In this document: positions 31,520 through 56,799 of the stretch, piece after piece | Position numbering within the stretch: position 1 is the first letter of the stretch | Layout of the letters: the number at the start of each line of letters is the position of its first letter | Assembly (NCBI RefSeq): GCF_036226405.1 | Contig: NZ_CP108464.1 | Location: 8,060,001 to 8,124,000 of the forward strand | DNA from: Streptomyces sp. NBC_01260 | Lineage (GTDB): Bacteria > Actinomycetota > Actinomycetes > Streptomycetales > Streptomycetaceae | DNA length: 64,000 nt | Direction: 5' to 3' | Position numbers and translations under genes: made by a program | The notes under the pieces: generated by a model | What the model was told of the DNA's origin: nothing | Databases searched by the model: none | The model's input: only the letters and a program-made list of their open reading frames with translations

Positions 31520-32323
31520 TCATTTTCGCCGGTCGTCGCCGTGGGCGGGCGGCCGCCCCGCCGTGCGGACGGCCACCGCCGCCGCGTATCCGGCGGGGAC
31601 CGCCACGTCGGTGACGGTCCAGCCCGCCGGGCCCGGCTCCGGACGGGGGCCGGTGCCCATGTGGTCGTGCGAGAGACCGCCGGCCAGGCCGATCCCCTTG
31701 CCCTTCAGATAGGCCTCCTTGCGGGTCCACGCCCGGACGAAGGCGGCCGGCCGCTGTTCCTCGGGCAGCTCCGCCAGCTCCCGGCGTTCCGCCGGATGCA
31801 GCTGGTCCCCGATCTCCGACACGGTCCTGGCCTTCGGGGTGCGCTCCACATCCACCCCCACCGGCTCGTCCGCGAACGCCAGCAGGGCGACGCCCCGGGT
31901 GTGCGACAGGGAGAAGTGCACGCCGCCGCCGGTCGCGGGACGGCCGTGCGGCCCGCCGCAGGACGGACACGGTTCCCGCGTCAGCCGGACGGCCTCCGGG
32001 GCGATGCCGAGCCGGGCGCCCAGCAGCAGCCGCAGCGCCACGTGCGAGGCGACGAAGCAGAGGCGGTCGGCCTCGACGACCAGACTCCCGGCCCGCCCGA
32101 GCTCCTGCGCGTCGAGGATCCCCGGGGCGAGCCGCTGCGCCGCCTCGCCCTCCCGCTGCGGGTCCACGATCCACAGTGCCGGGATGCCGGGGGCCCAGGA
32201 GGGCGCCGGGCTCCGGTGGCCGGTCTCGGTGAGTGCGAACTCGTCGGGCTGGTACACCGTTGCGTCTTCCCTCGGCCGGGGCGGGTGCCGTGAGCGGTCG
32301 TCAACGGCGGAGCGGTCACTCAT
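31520..32323 (-). CDS. 4'-phosphopantetheinyl transferase (Sfp type)
   Basis: 267 residues from ATG 32323. The core motifs are [30 protein letters not shown] (Mg-binding GVDVE with the upstream FSLSHT) and [19 protein letters not shown] (WxxKEA). [10 protein letters not shown] zinc-like insert is common in actinobacterial members. It transfers phosphopantetheine from CoA to the serine of carrier proteins, turning apo-ACP/PCP into the holo form. It could serve the ACP at 52864 and other carrier domains of the cell; being a stand-alone gene, this is not specific. Confidence 0.92.
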
Positions 32324-49207: not shown

Positions 49208-49382
49208 CCCGTTCGGGACCCGAGCCCCCGGCCTTCTCCACCGGGCCGGGGACCTCGTACGTCGTGACCGCACCCACCCCGCGCACGGGGAAGTGACCCG
49301 TTCGGCCCAGTGGGCGCATCCTCGGCCGGGGCCCGGCCGTTCGACCGGCGGCGGGGGCGAACGATGACGGGAGGGCCGCGGC

Positions 49383-50624
49383 ATGGCGTGGGACGGGGCA
49401 GCAACTGTGGTGACGGGCCTGGGGCTTGTGACCCCGGCCGGCGCTGACGAGCACGCCTTCTGGGCGGGGCTGTGCGCCGGGACCGGTGTGGCCCGGCACT
49501 GCGAGGAACTGGCCGGCCTGCCGGTCGACTTCGCCTGCCGGGCCGACGCGGGGGACCTGGACGAGGCGGTGGGCGGACGCGCCGTGTTCCGGATGGCGCG
49601 GTTCGTGAAGATGGCGCTCGTCGCCGCCCGCCGTGCCGTGGCGGACGCCGGGCTCCGACCGGACCGCTGGGACGGCAGCCGGGTGGGCGTCGTGCTGGGC
49701 GTCGGCGTGGGCGGTGTTTCCGTTCTCGTCGACAACGTCCGCAGGCTGGACGCGGACGGACCGCTCGCGGTCTCCCCGCTCCTTGTGCCGATGATGATGC
49801 CGAACGCGGCCGCCGGGGAGGTCGCCATCGACCTGCGCGCCCACGGGCCGAGTCTGGCCCCGGCCACCGCCTGCGCGTCGGGCGCCACCGCGCTCGCTCT
49901 CGCCCGCGACCTGCTGACGAGCGGTCAGTGCGACGTTGTGGTGGCCGGCGGTGCGGAGTCCGTGGTGACTCCGCTGGTGGTGACCGCGTTCGCGGGGATG
50001 GGCGCACTCTCGGTGCGCACCGGCGAGCCGGCGGCCGCGTCGAGGCCGTTCGCCGCGGACCGCGACGGGTTCGTCCTGGGCGAGGGCGCCGCCGTCCTCG
50101 TACTGGAACGCGCCGGGGACGTCCGGGCCCGTGGCGGACGGGCGCGGGCGGTGCTGGCCGGTGCGGGCGCTGCCACGGACGCCCACCACCCCACCGCCCC
50201 CGACCCGGGCGGCCGAGGCGCTCAGCGGGCGGTCGAGGCGGCACTGGACCGGGCGGGCTGGGCTGCCCGCGACGTGGACCACATCAACGCACATGGCACC
50301 TCCACCCCGCTGAACGACGCCATGGAATCCGCGCTGATCGCCCGGCTCTTCCCGCACCGGCCCTCGGTGACCGCACCGAAGGGCGTCATCGGGCACACCC
50401 TTGCGGCGGGCGGTGCGATCGAGGCGGTGGCCACCGTACTGACCCTGGAACACGGCCTCGTCCCGCCGATCGCCAACCTCGACGCCCCGCCGGCGGAGTC
50501 CGGCCTCGACTGTGTGACCAAGGAACCCCGCAGGCAGCGCGTCGAGCGGGCCCTCAGCCACTCCTTCGGATTCGGCGGCCACAATGTCGCCCTCGCCTTC
50601 CAGCGGGCCCCGGCACCCCGCTGA
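49383..50624 (+). CDS. Beta-ketoacyl-ACP synthase (FabF/KAS II-like), first of a pair
   Basis: 413 residues, ATG 49383. It has a complete KS triad: Cys164 in PATACASGATAL, His in HINAHGTSTPLND, and His in GVIGHTLAAGGAIEA; the end is SHSFGFGGHNVAL. It belongs to the stand-alone FabF-like condensing enzymes and is not a chain-length factor, because the Cys is present. It should condense an acyl starter with malonyl-ACP. It opens a tight set (acyl-CoA oxidase-like, small membrane protein, ACP, second KS) that has no local KR or DH, so partner reductases must come from elsewhere. The product is unknown. Confidence 0.92.
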   Translation: MAWDGAATVVTGLGLVTPAGADEHAFWAGLCAGTGVARHCEELAGLPVDFACRADAGDLDEAVGGRAVFRMARFVKMALVAARRAVADAGLRPDRWDGSRVGVVLGVGVGGVSVLVDNVRRLDADGPLAVSPLLVPMMMPNAAAGEVAIDLRAHGPSLAPATACASGATALALARDLLTSGQCDVVVAGGAESVVTPLVVTAFAGMGALSVRTGEPAAASRPFAADRDGFVLGEGAAVLVLERAGDVRARGGRARAVLAGAGAATDAHHPTAPDPGGRGAQRAVEAALDRAGWAARDVDHINAHGTSTPLNDAMESALIARLFPHRPSVTAPKGVIGHTLAAGGAIEAVATVLTLEHGLVPPIANLDAPPAESGLDCVTKEPRRQRVERALSHSFGFGGHNVALAFQRAPAPR

Positions 50625-50692
50625 ACAGGAAGTAAAGGGCTGCGAATGCCAGAATTCGGGTGTCCTGGCTGATTCCTGATCGTTCCTGTCGT

Positions 50693-52597
50693 ATGACCAT
50701 TACGATGGATAGCCCCATGGTGACCGGAGCCGGCACGGAGCGGGTCGCGGACCGGCTCACCGCAGTGCTCCTCGGCGCGGACGCCCGCCGGGAGCACGGC
50801 TTCTGGCAGCGCATCATCGCCACCGAGCCGTTCCGCAGGCCGGTAGTCCCCCTGCCCGGTCCCACCCCCGACGAGCGGCTCGCGCTCGCCCACGCCCGGC
50901 TGCGCACGCTCAACAACGCGCTGGACAGCGGCGCGAGGCTGGCAGCCGACCCGCGCGCCCTGGCCGCACTGCACGAATGGCTCGCCCCGGTGGACCCGAC
51001 TCTCGCCACCGTCGCGGGAATCCACTACAACCTCTTCCTCGGCAGTCTGCTGGACCACGACGCCGACCGGTCCCGCGATCTGTCGGACTTCCTCGCGATG
51101 CGGCGCATCGGGACCTTCCTCTGTACGGAGGTGGCGCACGGCAATGACGCCGCCGCGGTCGAGACGACGGCCACCTACGACCGTGCCCGGGACGGATTCG
51201 TGCTGCACACGCCGCACCTGGGCGCGCAGAAGTTCATGCCCAACACCAGCCGGGCCGGCGGCCCCAAGTCGGGACTCGTCGCCGCCCGGCTCCTCGTCGA
51301 GGGAGCCGACCACGGGGTCTTCCTGCTGCTGGTGCCGCTCACCGACTCGTCGCAGGCCCTGCCCGGGGTACGGATCCGCAGGCTTCCGGCACGGCTGGGC
51401 AGTCCCGTGGACCACTGTCTGACCTCCTTCGACCAGGTATTCGTGGGGCGCGAGGCACTGCTCGGCGGCCAGCAGGGGCGGGTCGGCGACGACGGGGTGT
51501 TCCGCAGCGGCACCGCCGGCCGCAGACGCCGATTCCTCGCCTCCATCGGCCGCGTCACCACGGGCCGCATCTGCATGAGCGCCAGTGCGGTCGGCTCCGC
51601 CCGGGCCACCCTTGCCATCGCGGTCCGCTACTCCGGCCACCGGTATGTCTCCGGGGGCCGTGCGCTGCCGCCGTTGCCGGTGATGGCCCACCGCAGCCAC
51701 CACGGCCCGCTGGCCGGGGCCATGGCCACCGTCTTCGCGATGAGCCTGCTGCACCGACGGGTCCTCGACCGCTGGGAGGCCGCGGTGCGCGGCCCGGCGG
51801 CGGAGCGCGCGGCGGCCGGGCAGCTGGTCGACATCGCCAAGGGCTGGATCACCTGGCAGGCCCGGTCCGTGATCGTCGAATGCCGGGAACGGTGCGGAGC
51901 CCAGGGACTGCTGGAGAACAACGGAATGACCGAACTCGTCACCGCGGTGGAGGGCGCCATCACCGCCGAGGGCGACAACCTGGCCATCCACGCCAAGGCG
52001 GCGGCCGAGATGGTCATCTCAGCGATGCCCGAGGCATTGGACGCGTGGGGCACCGCGTCCGGCCGGCCGGACGGCGACCTGAACGATCTGCGCTACCTCG
52101 GCCGGCTCCTGGCCCAGGTGGAGCGGATCCAGTTCGCCCGCTCCCGCGCACGCATGGCACGGGCCCCGCACGGTGGCCCGCTGAAGCGGTGGAACACGGG
52201 GTCCGGGCCCGCGCTGCGAGGCGTCGAGGCGCACGCCTACCGGCAGGCGGCCGACGCGTACGCGGACGCGGTCGAGGGCCTGCCCGAGGGGCCTGCCCGC
52301 GAGCGGCTGACCGAACTGGCCCGGCTGTTCGCGCTGCGCTGGGTCGAACGCAACAGCGGGGACCTGCTCGTCGCCGGTCACCTCACGGCCGACCAGGTCG
52401 AAGGGCTGACGGAGGCCACCGAGCAGCTCGTCGCCGCCGTCGCGGTCCACCTGCCGGAACTCGCCGGCTCCTTCGCGCTGCCGGCGGAACTGCTCGCCGA
52501 CTGGCCCATCGCGGGAGCCCGCTACGCGGAGGCGTACGACGACCTGGAGGCGTCCTGGCACACGGGCGAGAGGCAGGTACCCGCGGGGGATCGATGA
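50693..52597 (+). CDS. Acyl-CoA oxidase / dehydrogenase-like flavoprotein
   Basis: About 634 residues from ATG 50693; the start is uncertain (no good ribosome site; ATG 50705 is an alternative). The order of domains matches peroxisomal-type acyl-CoA oxidases: an N-terminal helical part, then a beta-domain with MRRIGTFLCTEVAHGNDAAAVETTATYDRARDGFVLHTPHLGAQKFMPN. The long helical C-terminal region follows (GRICMSASAVGSARATLAIAVRYSGHR; ITWQARSVIVECRERCGAQGLLENNGM, with Glu and Cys near the active-site position). It probably desaturates an acyl thioester at alpha-beta using FAD and O2. It may act on a CoA- or ACP-bound chain in this cluster. Its stop overlaps the next ATG. Confidence 0.85.
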   Translation: MTITMDSPMVTGAGTERVADRLTAVLLGADARREHGFWQRIIATEPFRRPVVPLPGPTPDERLALAHARLRTLNNALDSGARLAADPRALAALHEWLAPVDPTLATVAGIHYNLFLGSLLDHDADRSRDLSDFLAMRRIGTFLCTEVAHGNDAAAVETTATYDRARDGFVLHTPHLGAQKFMPNTSRAGGPKSGLVAARLLVEGADHGVFLLLVPLTDSSQALPGVRIRRLPARLGSPVDHCLTSFDQVFVGREALLGGQQGRVGDDGVFRSGTAGRRRRFLASIGRVTTGRICMSASAVGSARATLAIAVRYSGHRYVSGGRALPPLPVMAHRSHHGPLAGAMATVFAMSLLHRRVLDRWEAAVRGPAAERAAAGQLVDIAKGWITWQARSVIVECRERCGAQGLLENNGMTELVTAVEGAITAEGDNLAIHAKAAAEMVISAMPEALDAWGTASGRPDGDLNDLRYLGRLLAQVERIQFARSRARMARAPHGGPLKRWNTGSGPALRGVEAHAYRQAADAYADAVEGLPEGPARERLTELARLFALRWVERNSGDLLVAGHLTADQVEGLTEATEQLVAAVAVHLPELAGSFALPAELLADWPIAGARYAEAYDDLEASWHTGERQVPAGDR

Positions 52598-52770
52598 CGG
52601 CCGGGACGGAGCAGGGAACACCCGTGCGGCTGCGCCGTGCGGCCGCGGCGGCACAGGGCCTCGGAGTCGGTGTCGTACTCCTGGCCTTCTGGGGCACCGC
52701 GGCCGTGTTGTCGCGGTGGTGCCCGGGGGAGCGGCCCCGCGGAGGCGAATCGGTTCGCCGCAAGGCGTAA
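52594..52770 (+). CDS. Small single-span membrane protein (58 aa)
   Basis: ATG 52594 overlaps the oxidase stop (ATGA). MTAGTEQGTPVRLRRAAAAAQGLGVGVVLLAFWGTAAVLSRWCPGERPRGG has one hydrophobic helix (about 21-41) with positive residues before it. No family is recognised. Coupling with the oxidase suggests it helps place the pathway at the membrane. Confidence 0.6.
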   Translation: MTAGTEQGTPVRLRRAAAAAQGLGVGVVLLAFWGTAAVLSRWCPGERPRGGESVRRKA

Positions 52771-52863
52771 CTGGACGGACGCTGCTCAGTTACTTCGGCG
52801 TCGGGGCGTGAGAGGCAGCGCTCCGGACACCCCCGCCGGACGGGCATGATGGAGAGGAAGACC

Positions 52864-53124
52864 ATGAGCGCGATTCACCCCACGATCACCGAGGTACTCA
52901 GCCGTACCTTCAGGGTGCCCGTGGCCGAGATTCTCCCGGAATCCACGATGGACAGCCTGGACATGGACTCCCTGGCAGTCGCCGAGTTCGCCGTCGTCAT
53001 GAGGGAGGCCGTCGGCGTCGAGCTGGACCCGGGCACCCTGCACAGGGACACCAGCCTCGCCGGGCTCACGGAGTTCCTCCGGGCGTCGGCCGGCGGCCAG
53101 GCACCGGTGGGCAACGCCCGATGA
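52864..53124 (+). CDS. Acyl carrier protein
   Basis: 86 residues from ATG 52864 with GAGAGGAAG upstream (ATG 52846 is an alternative adding six residues). A four-helix ACP pattern: ITEVLSRTFRVPVAEILPESTMDSLDMDSLAVAEFAVVMREAVGVELDPG. The phosphopantetheine serine is predicted at Ser36 in MDSLAVAE. The overlap with the next KS start (ATGA at 53121-53124) ties it to that enzyme. It would carry the growing chain for the two KS enzymes after activation by an Sfp-type transferase such as the one at 31520. Confidence 0.92.
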   Translation: MSAIHPTITEVLSRTFRVPVAEILPESTMDSLDMDSLAVAEFAVVMREAVGVELDPGTLHRDTSLAGLTEFLRASAGGQAPVGNAR

Positions 53125-54344
53125 CGACGCCGGCCATCGCCGTCACCGGTCTGGGAATGATCACCCCGGTCGGCAACGACACCGAGTCCACCTGGGACGG
53201 TGTGTGCGCCGGGGTCAGCCCGGCCCGCACCGTCCCCGCACTCGCAGGGTGCGCGATCGACTTCGCCTGCACGGTCGACGGCATCGACCTGGACGCCGCG
53301 ATCGGCCGCCGCACGGCCTACCGCATGGGCAGGTACGCCAAATTCGCCGTACTCGCCGCACGGGAGGCGGTCGCCGACGCGGGAGTCGACCCGGGAGGCT
53401 GGGACGGCAGCCGGGTCGCGGTCGTCGTCGGTACCAGCAGCGGCGGCTCCGCCGGTCTCACCGATCAGGCACTGGTGCTGGAACGGCGCGGGCCCGAGGC
53501 GACCTCGCCGTCCGGGATCCTGCTCACCATCCCGAACATGCCCGCGGCCGAGATCGCGATCGAGATGGGCGCCACGGGCCCCAGCCTGGCGCCCTGCACC
53601 GCCTGCTCGTCCGGGATCACCGCACTGTCCGTGGCCCGGGACCTGCTCGTCACCGGGCAGTGCGACCTGGCGATCGCGGGAGCCACCGAATCGACCCTCT
53701 TCCCGATCGCCATGACCGGATTCGCCAGATCCGGCGCGGCCGCCCGCGCGGACGGGGACCTGTCCCGGCTCAGCCGGCCCTTCTCGGCCGACCGGGCCGG
53801 GCTCGTCATGGGCGAGGGCGCCGCCGTCATGGTGCTGGAGCGCGCCGCCGACGCCGAGGCCCGGGGCGCCGAGCCGCGCGCGCTGCTCGCGGGCACCGGC
53901 GCCACCACCGACGCCCACCACCCCACCAGCCCGCACCCCGACGGCCGGGTCGCCCAGGCCGCCGTCGAGGCCGCGCTGCGCGACGCGGGCTGGCACGCCG
54001 CGGACGTCGAACACATCAACGCGCACGGTACGGCCACCCCGCGCAACGACGCGGCCGAAGCCGCCCTCATCGGCCGGGTCTTCCCGCACCGGCCGCCCGT
54101 CACCGCGCCCAAGGGCGTACTGGGCCACTGCATGGGCGCGGCCGGAGCGATCGAGGCGGGGCTGACGATCCTCACACTCCAGCGCGGAATCATCCCGCCG
54201 GTCGCCAACCTGGACGCGCCCGCGCCCGGGTTCGACATCGACTGCGTCATCAAGCAGCCGCTGGCGCTGCCCGTCCGGCGTGCCGTCAGCCACTCGTTCG
54301 GATTCGGTGGACACAACGCCGTGGTCGCGCTCCTGCGCCCATAG
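53121..54344 (+). CDS. Beta-ketoacyl-ACP synthase, second of the pair
   Basis: 407 residues, ATG overlapping the ACP stop. It also has a complete triad: Cys162 in PCTACSSGITAL, His in HINAHGTATPRND, and His in GVLGHCMGAAGAIEA. It is a paralogue of the KS at 49383 (same openings: VTGLG, RMGRYAKFAVLAAREAVADAG) but differs in the GTSSGG stretch where the first has VGVGG. Two active KS with one ACP is unlike a KS/CLF minimal PKS. One may start chains and the other extend, or they may form a heterodimer. The product is unknown. Confidence 0.92.
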   Translation: MTTPAIAVTGLGMITPVGNDTESTWDGVCAGVSPARTVPALAGCAIDFACTVDGIDLDAAIGRRTAYRMGRYAKFAVLAAREAVADAGVDPGGWDGSRVAVVVGTSSGGSAGLTDQALVLERRGPEATSPSGILLTIPNMPAAEIAIEMGATGPSLAPCTACSSGITALSVARDLLVTGQCDLAIAGATESTLFPIAMTGFARSGAAARADGDLSRLSRPFSADRAGLVMGEGAAVMVLERAADAEARGAEPRALLAGTGATTDAHHPTSPHPDGRVAQAAVEAALRDAGWHAADVEHINAHGTATPRNDAAEAALIGRVFPHRPPVTAPKGVLGHCMGAAGAIEAGLTILTLQRGIIPPVANLDAPAPGFDIDCVIKQPLALPVRRAVSHSFGFGGHNAVVALLRP

Positions 54345-54419
54345 CGACCGGGCCGGTGGAACAGGCGGGGGCCCGCCCATTCCACCGGCCGCACCGCCGC
54401 TGAGCTGCGCAGAGGCTCG

Positions 54420-54600
54420 TGGTAGCGTGCCTGGGCCAGTCGAACTCCACGTAGGGGTCAGGGAATCCGGTGCGAATCCGGAACTGACGCGCAGCGGTGA
54501 GGGGGACGGGCGGGGCCAACAGCCACTGGGAGACCCATGGGTTCCCGGGAAGGCGTCCCGACCGTACGAACCCGAGTCCGAAGACCTGCTGGCACCCGCG
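54420..54600 (+). ncRNA. Cobalamin riboswitch
   Basis: The region between the KS gene and the importer operon contains the conserved core: GGGAATCCGGTGCGAATCCG followed by GAACTGACGCGCAGCGGTGA (54462-54500), GCCACTGGGAGACCC with its pairing partner near 54522-54556, and a B12 box-like GTCCGAAGACCTGCT (54576-54590). It should bind adenosylcobalamin in the nascent mRNA and repress the downstream uptake genes when the vitamin is plentiful. The ends are approximate; P1 pairing was not drawn exactly. Confidence 0.85.
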
Positions 54601-54670
54601 GTCCGGCACCGGGTCGCGGAACTCCGTACACCGGGCCCCGCGCATGGGCCCAGAGACGCCGAGGTACTTC

Positions 54671-55711
54671 GTGCCGCCCATAGCCGGCCACGCCCGCTCC
54701 GCCGCCCTGCTCATGGCGGGGACAGTCCTGCTGACAGCCTGTGGTGGTGGCGGGGACAGCTCCGCAGCCAAGTCCACCGGGGCCGACGGCTATCCGGTGA
54801 CCCTGAAGAACTGCGGGCGCACCGTCACCGTGGAGGCGGCCCCGCGCCGTGCCGTCCCGGTCGACCAGGGGTCCACCGAGATCCTGCTCTCGCTCGGCCT
54901 CGCCGACCGGCTGGCCGCCACCGCCACCTGGACCGACCCGGTGATGAAGGGCCTGGAGAAGGCCAACGCCGGCGTCCCGAGGATCTCCGAGAACCGTCCC
55001 TCCTCGGAGAAGGTCCTGGACCAGGAGCCCGACTTCGTCAGCGCGTCCTTCGAGTCGACGCTCGCCAAGGGCGGCGTCGCCCCACGCGAGCAGTTCGAGA
55101 AGCTGGGCGTCCCCACCTACGTCTCGCCCGCCGACTGCACCGCCAAGGACAACAGCAAGGACGGCGACGGGGTCCGGACCGGAGCGCTGACCATGGACAG
55201 CGTCTACCGTGAAGTACGCGACCTTGCCCAGGTGTTCGGTGTCCCGGAGCGGGGCGAGAAGCTCGTGGCGGAGCTGCGTGCCCGGGTGCGCAAGGCCACC
55301 GACGGCGTCGACGCCTCCGGCGCCACCCTGATGTACTGGTTCGCCAACTCCGAGTCCCCGTACCTGGCGGGCTGTTGCGGAGCACCCGGCGTCATCACCG
55401 GTGAGCTCGGCGCGAAGAACGTCTTCGACGACACCCATGAGGAATGGCCGCAGATCAACTGGGAGACGGTCGCCGACCGCAACCCGGACGTGCTGGTCAT
55501 CGGCGATCTGACCCGCAAGTCGGAGACCGCCGAGAGCGCCTCGCGGAAGATCGCGTTCCTGGAGTCCAACCCCGCCACGAAGAACATGGACGCCGTACGG
55601 CACAAGCGCTACGTGCTGCTCAGCGGCCAGGCCATGAACCCGTCGATCCGTACGGTCGAGGGCGTGGAGCGCGTCGCCGCCGGGCTGCGTACGTTCGGGC
55701 TCGCGGGGTGA
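54671..55711 (+). CDS. btuF: BtuF-like cobalamin-binding lipoprotein
   Basis: 346 residues from GTG 54671, chosen for a CGAGG site and a compact lipoprotein signal (PPIAGHARSAALLMAGTVLLTAC); ATG 54644 is an alternative. The mature part has VTLKNCGRTVTVEAAPRRAVPVDQGSTEILLSLGLADRLAAT, SSEKVLDQEPDFVSASFESTLAKG, LMYWFANSESPYLAGCCGAPGVI and RNPDVLVIGDL. This is the helical-backbone fold of vitamin B12/siderophore binding proteins. The riboswitch just upstream makes cobalamin (or a precursor) the likely ligand. It is membrane-anchored outside. Confidence 0.9.
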   Translation: MPPIAGHARSAALLMAGTVLLTACGGGGDSSAAKSTGADGYPVTLKNCGRTVTVEAAPRRAVPVDQGSTEILLSLGLADRLAATATWTDPVMKGLEKANAGVPRISENRPSSEKVLDQEPDFVSASFESTLAKGGVAPREQFEKLGVPTYVSPADCTAKDNSKDGDGVRTGALTMDSVYREVRDLAQVFGVPERGEKLVAELRARVRKATDGVDASGATLMYWFANSESPYLAGCCGAPGVITGELGAKNVFDDTHEEWPQINWETVADRNPDVLVIGDLTRKSETAESASRKIAFLESNPATKNMDAVRHKRYVLLSGQAMNPSIRTVEGVERVAAGLRTFGLAG

Positions 55712-56799
55712 CGGACACCGAACAGGCCGCGAAGGTGAGTGAGCGCGCGCTCACCCATGCCGGTGAGGGCGGGCGTCCCGGCATCCGGGGCATCCGCAGC
55801 GGACTCCTGTGGGCCGGCGGGCTCCTGCTGCTCGTCCTGTCCGTCGCGGTGGCCGTCACCATCGGTCCGGCCAGGATCTCCGTCAACGACGTCCGGGACA
55901 CGGTCGCGGCCCACCTCGGGCTCGGGGAGTCGCCGCTCAGCCCGATCCGGGACGGCATCATCTGGAACCTGCGCATGCCCAGGACGCTGCTCGCCGCCGT
56001 CTGCGGTGCCGGGCTCGCGGTCTGCGGCACCGTCATGCAGTCGCTGCTGCGCAACCCGCTCGCCGACCCGTTCGTCCTCGGTGTCTCCTCCGGGGCGTCG
56101 ACCGGCGCGGTCGTGGTCGTCGTCCTCGGGGTCGGCGGGGGAGCGGTGTCCCTGTCGGCCGGTGCGTTCATCGGGGCGCTGTGCTCCTTCGCGCTGGTCC
56201 TGCTGCTCAGCCACACCCTCGGCGGCAGCACCGACCGGGTGGTCCTGTCCGGGGTCGCGGCCATGCAGCTGTTCTCCGCGCTCACCTCCTTCGTCGTGAT
56301 GACCGCCGCCGACGCCGAGCAGACCCGCGGGGTGCTGTTCTGGCTTCTGGGTTCACTCGGCGGCGTCGGCTGGACCGATGTGTGGACCTGCTCCGCCGTG
56401 CTGGCCGTGACGCTGCTGATCTGCCTGGGCCATGCCCGTACGCTCGATGCCTTCGCCTTCGGCCAGGACGCGGCCGCCACCCTGGGTGTCCATGTCGGGC
56501 GCACCCGGATCGTGCTGCTCTGCACAACCGCGCTGCTGACCGCCGCACTGGTCAGCTCGGCCGGTGCCATCGGCTTCGTCGGCCTGGTGCTGCCGCACGC
56601 GGCCCGTGCGCTCACCGGTTCCGGGCATCGCAGACTGCTGCCGGTCACCGCGCTGGCCGGGGCCGTTTTCCTGGTCTGGGTCGACACCCTCGCGCGCACC
56701 GTCCTCGATCCGCAGGAGGTTCCGGTGGGCGTCGTCACCGCCCTGATCGGGGTGCCGGCCTTCGTCCTCGTCCTCTACCGCACCCGGCGGTCCGCGTGA
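55708..56799 (+). CDS. btuC: BtuC-like ABC permease
   Basis: 363 residues, GTG overlapping the previous stop (GTGA). Typical FecCD/BtuC sequence with about ten helices: RMPRTLLAAVCGAGLAVCGTVMQSLLRNPLADPFVLGVSSGASTGAV, LFWLLGSLGG and VSSAGAIGFVGLVLPHAARAL (the ATPase-contacting loop), then DTLARTVLDPQEVPVGVVTALIGVPAFVLVLYR. It forms the channel of the cobalamin importer, coupled to both neighbours. Confidence 0.95.
   Translation: MTDTEQAAKVSERALTHAGEGGRPGIRGIRSGLLWAGGLLLLVLSVAVAVTIGPARISVNDVRDTVAAHLGLGESPLSPIRDGIIWNLRMPRTLLAAVCGAGLAVCGTVMQSLLRNPLADPFVLGVSSGASTGAVVVVVLGVGGGAVSLSAGAFIGALCSFALVLLLSHTLGGSTDRVVLSGVAAMQLFSALTSFVVMTAADAEQTRGVLFWLLGSLGGVGWTDVWTCSAVLAVTLLICLGHARTLDAFAFGQDAAATLGVHVGRTRIVLLCTTALLTAALVSSAGAIGFVGLVLPHAARALTGSGHRRLLPVTALAGAVFLVWVDTLARTVLDPQEVPVGVVTALIGVPAFVLVLYRTRRSA

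Follow-up and report, generated by a model that had tools for sequence, protein, structure and literature searches.

A five-gene ketosynthase, acyl-CoA oxidase and acyl carrier protein set of Streptomyces, probably a reduced auxiliary type II fatty-acid/oxidase cassette

What could be the role of a compact gene set that encodes two ketosynthases, one acyl carrier protein, an acyl-CoA-oxidase-type flavoprotein and a small membrane protein, and that has no ketoreductase, dehydratase, thioesterase or acyltransferase of its own? Such a set lies in the stretch of 64,000 nucleotides from the chromosome of Streptomyces sp. NBC_01260 that was analysed here and that we call the window. The results suggest that it is probably a reduced auxiliary type II fatty-acid/oxidase cassette, of a kind that is already known and with an exact content that we have not found described. 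The five genes are a real, conserved, all-or-none module. The features of the locus are as follows.

49383..50624, + strand: KS1, FabF-like ketosynthase, 413 aa (Pfam PF00109/PF02801, alignment, dN/dS)
50693..52597, + strand: ACOX, acyl-CoA-oxidase-type flavoprotein, 634 aa (PF22924, PF01756, PDB sequence matches, alignment)
52594..52770, + strand: SMP, 58 aa with one hydrophobic stretch (no Pfam family found in the Pfam search; tblastn/motif, alignment)
52864..53124, + strand: ACP, 86 aa with the preferred start and 92 aa if begun at 52846 (PF00550, E 5e-10)
53121..54344, + strand: KS2, FabF-like ketosynthase, 407 aa (PF00109/PF02801, alignment, dN/dS)
49226..49251, no strand: hairpin that follows the L31 gene and marks the upstream boundary of the unit (inverted repeat, 8-nt perfect arms)
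54351..54390, no strand: strong hairpin that follows KS2 and marks the downstream boundary of the unit (19-nt arms, 89% complementary)
54420..54607, + strand: cobalamin riboswitch, a neighbour outside the set (Rfam RF00174, 100 bits)

The five open reading frames have the place and strand, and by Pfam the domains, that a sequence-only reading of this DNA had assigned to them, and all five are free of frameshifts and stops. That reading had also counted three tight junctions, which was generous: there are two ATGA overlaps (ACOX/SMP at 52594-52597 and ACP/KS2 at 53121-53124), and the other gaps are 68 bp (KS1-ACOX) and 93 bp (SMP-ACP, from the start at 52864). Its ACP is present, with a PP-binding domain, and only the start has been moved; a start at 52846 is possible, but the one at 52864 appears better placed, being closely preceded by a GGAGAGGA-like ribosome site. 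The two hairpins have folding energies, as RNA, of -24.6 kcal/mol (49220-49260) and -34.8 kcal/mol (54345-54395), and a scan around the set gave neither T-run terminators nor sigma-70 promoters. The neighbours in the window are L31, the B12 riboswitch, Fec transport and DUF2382. A gene for a second-type ribosomal protein L31 (48944-49207) is found directly 5' of the set, as in several relatives. Directly 3', the riboswitch and the genes at 54716-56799 (by Pfam a periplasmic-binding protein and a FecCD permease) form an uptake unit for B12 or a similar compound, and these transport genes are no part of the five-gene set.

Both ketosynthases carry the N- and C-terminal ketoacyl-synt domains (Pfam) and a complete active site, namely Cys164, His304, Lys333 and His338 in KS1 and Cys162, His302, Lys331 and His336 in KS2, all of which are invariant in an alignment of five sequences. 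With Cys-His-Lys-His in both proteins neither is a Cys-less chain-length factor, so that a KS/chain-length-factor pair is ruled out, in agreement with the sequence-only reading, whose picture of two active FabF-type ketosynthases sharing one ACP with an oxidase-type flavoprotein is borne out by Pfam and the alignments. The same active cysteines distinguish the set from the minimal set of type II polyketide synthases (KS/CLF/ACP), which likewise consists of two KS-fold genes and an ACP. KS1 and KS2 are 57% identical to each other, and in the ketosynthase tree they fall into one group of 40 rows with support of 100 (the KS1 of locus L209 being unplaced). The nearest rows outside this group are ketosynthases of other ACOX cassettes, and the host ketosynthase at its own FabF/FabH/FabD-like locus stands apart (41% identity). 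As judged from this tree, KS1 and KS2 are the twin products of one duplication. At the position of FabF Ile108 the alignments place Ser in KS2 and Val in KS1, which we take as a minor clue to the shape of the chain.

The flavoprotein contains the domains ACOX_C_alpha1 (PF22924) and ACOX (PF01756), both above the cut-off, and of the 11 distinct PDB sequences that it matches the nine best are acyl-CoA oxidases. Its Glu426 is aligned to Glu421 of the rat acyl-CoA oxidase, which is presumably the catalytic base. With the C-alpha1 domain, the C-terminal domain and a glutamate at the catalytic position, the protein can be assigned to the acyl-CoA oxidase family. With a protein of S. laculatispora it shares 99% identity, and with that of S. 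laculatispora NRRL B-24909 (L159) 98%. A simple Nei-Gojobori count against seven relatives (seven pairwise comparisons per gene) gives dN/dS values of 0.10-0.21 for KS1, 0.09-0.25 for KS2 and 0.18-0.36 for ACOX, and these three genes are clearly kept by purifying selection. Constraint on ACP is weaker (0.26-0.70). The values for SMP are 0.48-0.67, with 2.10 against the closest strain, where there are few sites.

How widely the set occurs was assessed in two samples. An ACOX relative (E 1e-20 or better) is found in 68 of 150 Streptomyces genomes; among the 30 loci listed from these genomes, 13 (the window's included) have KS1, ACP and KS2, six have ACOX only at the same chromosomal place, and 11 are relatives of ~50% identity elsewhere. 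The second sample, with named genomes, consists of the best 80 of 209 ACOX loci, so that its counts lean to close relatives. ACOX is at least 56% identical in 64 of these 80, which are labelled Streptomyces (62), uncultured Streptomyces (1) and [Kitasatospora] papulosa (1). In the 64 loci KS1, ACP and KS2 are all present (51) or all absent (13) and never mixed, which indicates that they work as one unit. KS1 precedes ACOX and ACP-KS2 follow it in every one of the 51 module loci, and the order KS1-ACOX-ACP-KS2 is also seen outside the B12 locus. The KS2 copies in module loci are 73-100% identical. Three loci are cut by their edges: L170 begins inside KS1, leaving the place of an adjoining gene for FabH out of view, and L174 and L204 end inside KS2. 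The sequence-only reading had made its proposal depend on conservation beyond close relatives, and the outcome is divided: among the best 80 of 209 the five-gene set is confined to Streptomyces-labelled loci, and the [Kitasatospora] papulosa locus has ACOX alone. Outside the 56%-identity group the best 80 of 209 are of two kinds: 12 loci carry P450 and receptor-like genes, and in four ACOX has other surroundings.

ACP has its Ser36 within a DSL motif, and a 4'-phosphopantetheinyl transferase-type gene that might activate it (31520-32323, - strand, PF01648) is located 17 kb upstream. SMP is the least certain part of the set and is poorly constrained; it is found beside ACOX by tblastn or motif in 52 of the 64 loci (42 of the 51 with KS1-ACP-KS2 and 10 of the 13 with ACOX alone, from the best 80 of 209). 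Its core VLLA(Y/F)WGT is conserved in an alignment of 18 sequences and recurs where ACOX stands alone, as well as in L201, which lies elsewhere than the chromosomal place of the window.

The nearest published parallel is the lipid-starter cassette of the lipopeptides CDA and cystargamide (fabH4-hxcO-fabF3-ACP; ctmA-ctmD). According to excerpts of PMC9136287, FabF3/FabH4-type enzymes make the acyl-ACP there together with primary fatty-acid synthase (FAS) enzymes, and HxcO/CtmB is described as desaturating or epoxidising the acyl chain. As far as these excerpts describe it, that cassette shares with the window an acyl-CoA-oxidase-family protein, a FabF-type ketosynthase, a free ACP and the lack of its own ketoreductase and dehydratase; ACOX is likened to HxcO/CtmB here by the description of the cassette parts. 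In contrast, the window has no KAS III, a second FabF, a small membrane protein and another gene order, and the NRPS that adjoins the published cassettes has no match among the subset of window ORFs that was run against Pfam. Neither an NRPS nor a release enzyme or acceptor was seen among those ORFs, and, as the sequence-only reading had stated, neither they nor the set include a ketoreductase, dehydratase, thioesterase or acyltransferase. By Pfam the set also holds none of the KR, DH and ER genes that a complete type II FAS would have. Nevertheless, the exclusion of a normal type II FAS by the sequence-only reading is too strong: because the FabF3/FabH4 enzymes work with primary FAS enzymes (PMC9136287, excerpts), missing KR and DH genes are no obstacle to a FAS-type role, and the same precedent fits that reading's working idea of oxidative desaturation on the carrier with a few extensions. 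Its remark that no cluster of exactly this content is described is uncontradicted by the open-access papers searched, a collection that leaves out most subscription journals, but close parallels exist.

Another group of relatives points to hormone signalling. In the available excerpts Aco is proposed to form the C2-C3 double bond of avenolide, and deletion of Aco abolishes avenolide (PMC7554373); butenolide genes are reported in 74 of 415 genomes at a threshold of 50% (PMC5575351, excerpt), so that relatives of the window ACOX may have been counted among them. ACOX is ~50% identical to oxidases beside annotated ScbR-family receptors and P450 genes (51% to L157 and 50% to L158), and the 12 P450 and receptor loci form one clade next to that of the window in the ACOX tree. 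It is thus conceivable that ACOX, like Aco, supplies a butenolide-type signal with its 2-enoyl acid, with the KS and ACP proteins only shaping the chain and a P450 encoded elsewhere completing the product, and the abolition of avenolide in the Aco deletion would agree with this. We consider this reading unlikely. The two clades are separate (support 99), neither a P450 nor an ScbR-type gene adjoins the window ACOX, and the two P450 matches near relatives (L167 and the L168/L213 region) are several kb away at 43-45%. The avenolide-type aco-cyp17-avaR loci, whose clade is taken here from the loci with P450 and ScbR neighbours, have no KS or ACP genes. Membership of the window in an avenolide-type locus is consequently not supported, given the separate clade and the absence of a P450 and an ScbR/ArpA-type receptor beside ACOX. 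The loci L157 and L158 themselves, with an Aco-like oxidase, P450 and ScbR-family genes, are on linear plasmids (of S. lunaelactis and Streptomyces sp. NBC_00335) and may move.

In the ACOX tree, which has 89 rows, three changes are needed to account for the loci with ACOX alone, all forced by well-supported branches, and a tree of three flanking genes from 33 loci likewise requires three; both are quick builds with SH-aLRT support only, and the ACOX-tree count is that of the group table, a count of four arising if the distant FabH group is wrongly coded as lacking KS. KS1, ACP and KS2 thus appear to have been lost, leaving ACOX, in about three events. No KS2 relative above 50% was found in ten ACOX-alone genomes, each searched whole, and together with the tree counts this indicates that the module is inherited and lost as a block and that the oxidase can outlive it. 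In the flank tree the neighbour of the window strain is L210 (support 98), which lacks the module and so shows that KS1, ACP and KS2 are dispensable.

Such losses would also be consistent with a catabolic or detoxifying oxidase that acts on short or branched acyl-CoA, the KS and ACP genes being an independent neighbour unit added around it, and in several strains a PfkB-type sugar kinase gene ends 40-60 bp ahead of ACOX. The invariable arrangement of the module on both sides of ACOX, at the B12 locus and away from it, and the co-occurrence of ACOX and KS relatives in more distant cassettes make this quite unlikely.

These more distant cassettes, in the orders ACOX-FabH-SDR-FabH-ACP-KS and FabH-ACP-KS-ACOX-4HBT thioesterase, combine a FabF-like KS, an ACP and an ACOX as the window does; they differ in that their ACOX is 29-36% identical, they have one KS, and they carry FabH, SDR or thioesterase genes. 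We know of no named product for them. Among 20 loci with ACOX of ~28-31%, 12 have the order ACOX-FabH-SDR-FabH-(ACP)-KS and two a variant with FabH-SDR before ACOX, and eight further loci (ACOX 32-36%) contain FabH in six cases and KS in all eight. The window thus stands at the pared-down end of a wider family of such cassettes. Close relatives point in the same direction: a FabH (KAS III) gene, assigned by NCBIfam and Pfam, adjoins KS1 in 32 of the 51 module loci (best 80 of 209) and is absent from the window unit, which therefore looks like a trimmed FabH-FabF-ACOX-ACP-FabF cassette. The strains that neighbour the window strain likewise lack this gene. In the remaining 19 of the 51 it was not seen, L170 being one that cannot be judged. 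A PfkB-type kinase gene precedes many of the sets in relatives, and the window has none. Elsewhere in its own genome the FabH-like matches are 28-37% only, and three of them (32-37%) could prime.

That the window set is a decaying remnant which no longer makes its product is highly improbable: FabH and PfkB of many relatives are missing, its close relative L210 no longer has the KS module and SMP has the high ratio given above, but all five genes are intact, KS1, KS2 and ACOX are under purifying selection, and sets without FabH are kept in 18 further loci with the FabH place visible (L170 left out; best 80 of 209).

For the reduced auxiliary cassette we infer the following reactions, carrier and role for SMP, by analogy with the systems above, and hold the central part to be rather likely: KS1, KS2 and ACP would build an acyl chain with host enzymes acting in trans, and ACOX would then oxidise it at C2-C3. 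KS1 and KS2 would extend a primer with malonyl units on the dedicated ACP, and priming by KAS III, malonyl loading, keto reduction, dehydration and enoyl reduction would be supplied in trans by the primary FAS, the KAS III having formerly been encoded in the cassette as it is in most relatives. ACOX would use O2 as the acceptor to turn a saturated acyl-ACP or acyl-CoA into a trans-2-enoyl chain, and may go on to an epoxide, as excerpts of the literature propose for cystargamide. Since ACOX survives without KS1, ACP and KS2 in 13 of the 64 loci (best 80 of 209), it need not act on the dedicated ACP. SMP may serve to keep ACOX membrane-bound, and release would be performed by an enzyme encoded elsewhere. 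The module-less L210, the ACP ratios at the upper end of their range and the weak constraint on SMP speak against the cassette reading. A more specific version, to which we give little credence, is that KS1 and KS2 form an obligate heterodimer or strictly sequential pair on one ACP with a membrane-held ACOX, that they yield a novel kind of signal, 2-unsaturated or of butenolide type, whose formation needs neither P450 nor AfsA, and that module-less strains use ACOX-SMP to make a variant signal from ordinary acyl-CoA.

If the cassette reading is right, Streptomyces has a widespread and mostly uncharacterised group of cassettes that pass on a FAS-like module together with an acyl oxidase, as one unit and outside NRPS clusters. 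The strains with the module include S. globisporus and S. anulatus, and those without it K. papulosa and S. clavifer. The 13 natural strains that kept ACOX and have no module (best 80 of 209) are ready-made controls for product discovery, and the position next to the Aco oxidases offers a testable link to hormone signalling. The alkyloxazole signal system is, by the excerpt of PMC13367870, a three-gene NRPS system and unrelated.

The sequence-only reading would have been contradicted by homologous loci that always include KR or DH genes just outside the set and make a known type II polyketide. An SDR gene directly follows KS2 in seven loci (L202, L205, L206, L216, L218, L225 and L232), and most of the loci from the best 80 of 209 have none; the SDR of L206 is of the NCBIfam PRK05872 type, and L209 was dropped as an SDR locus, its match being 31% and on the other strand. 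A geosmin-synthase-like gene is found upstream in the SDR-carrying loci, and in six other genomes that were checked the best SDR relative (61-64%) lies away from such a gene.

Several observations concern the distant cassettes. Fourteen of the 20 loci with ACOX of ~28-31% (L239, L240, L242-L245, L247, L249-L253, L255 and L256) have two FabH, an SDR and a FabF-like KS, and an ACP match is usually present; in L251 an acyltransferase-domain gene precedes, and XRE-like regulator ORFs were noted by eye in L250, L240 and L255. The loci L046 and L149-L152 have FabH-KS-ACOX sets with an ACP match in four of the five, followed by a 4HBT thioesterase where ORFs were examined, and L046 and L150 also contain, by eye, FAH-like, carboxylase-like and aminotransferase-like ORFs.
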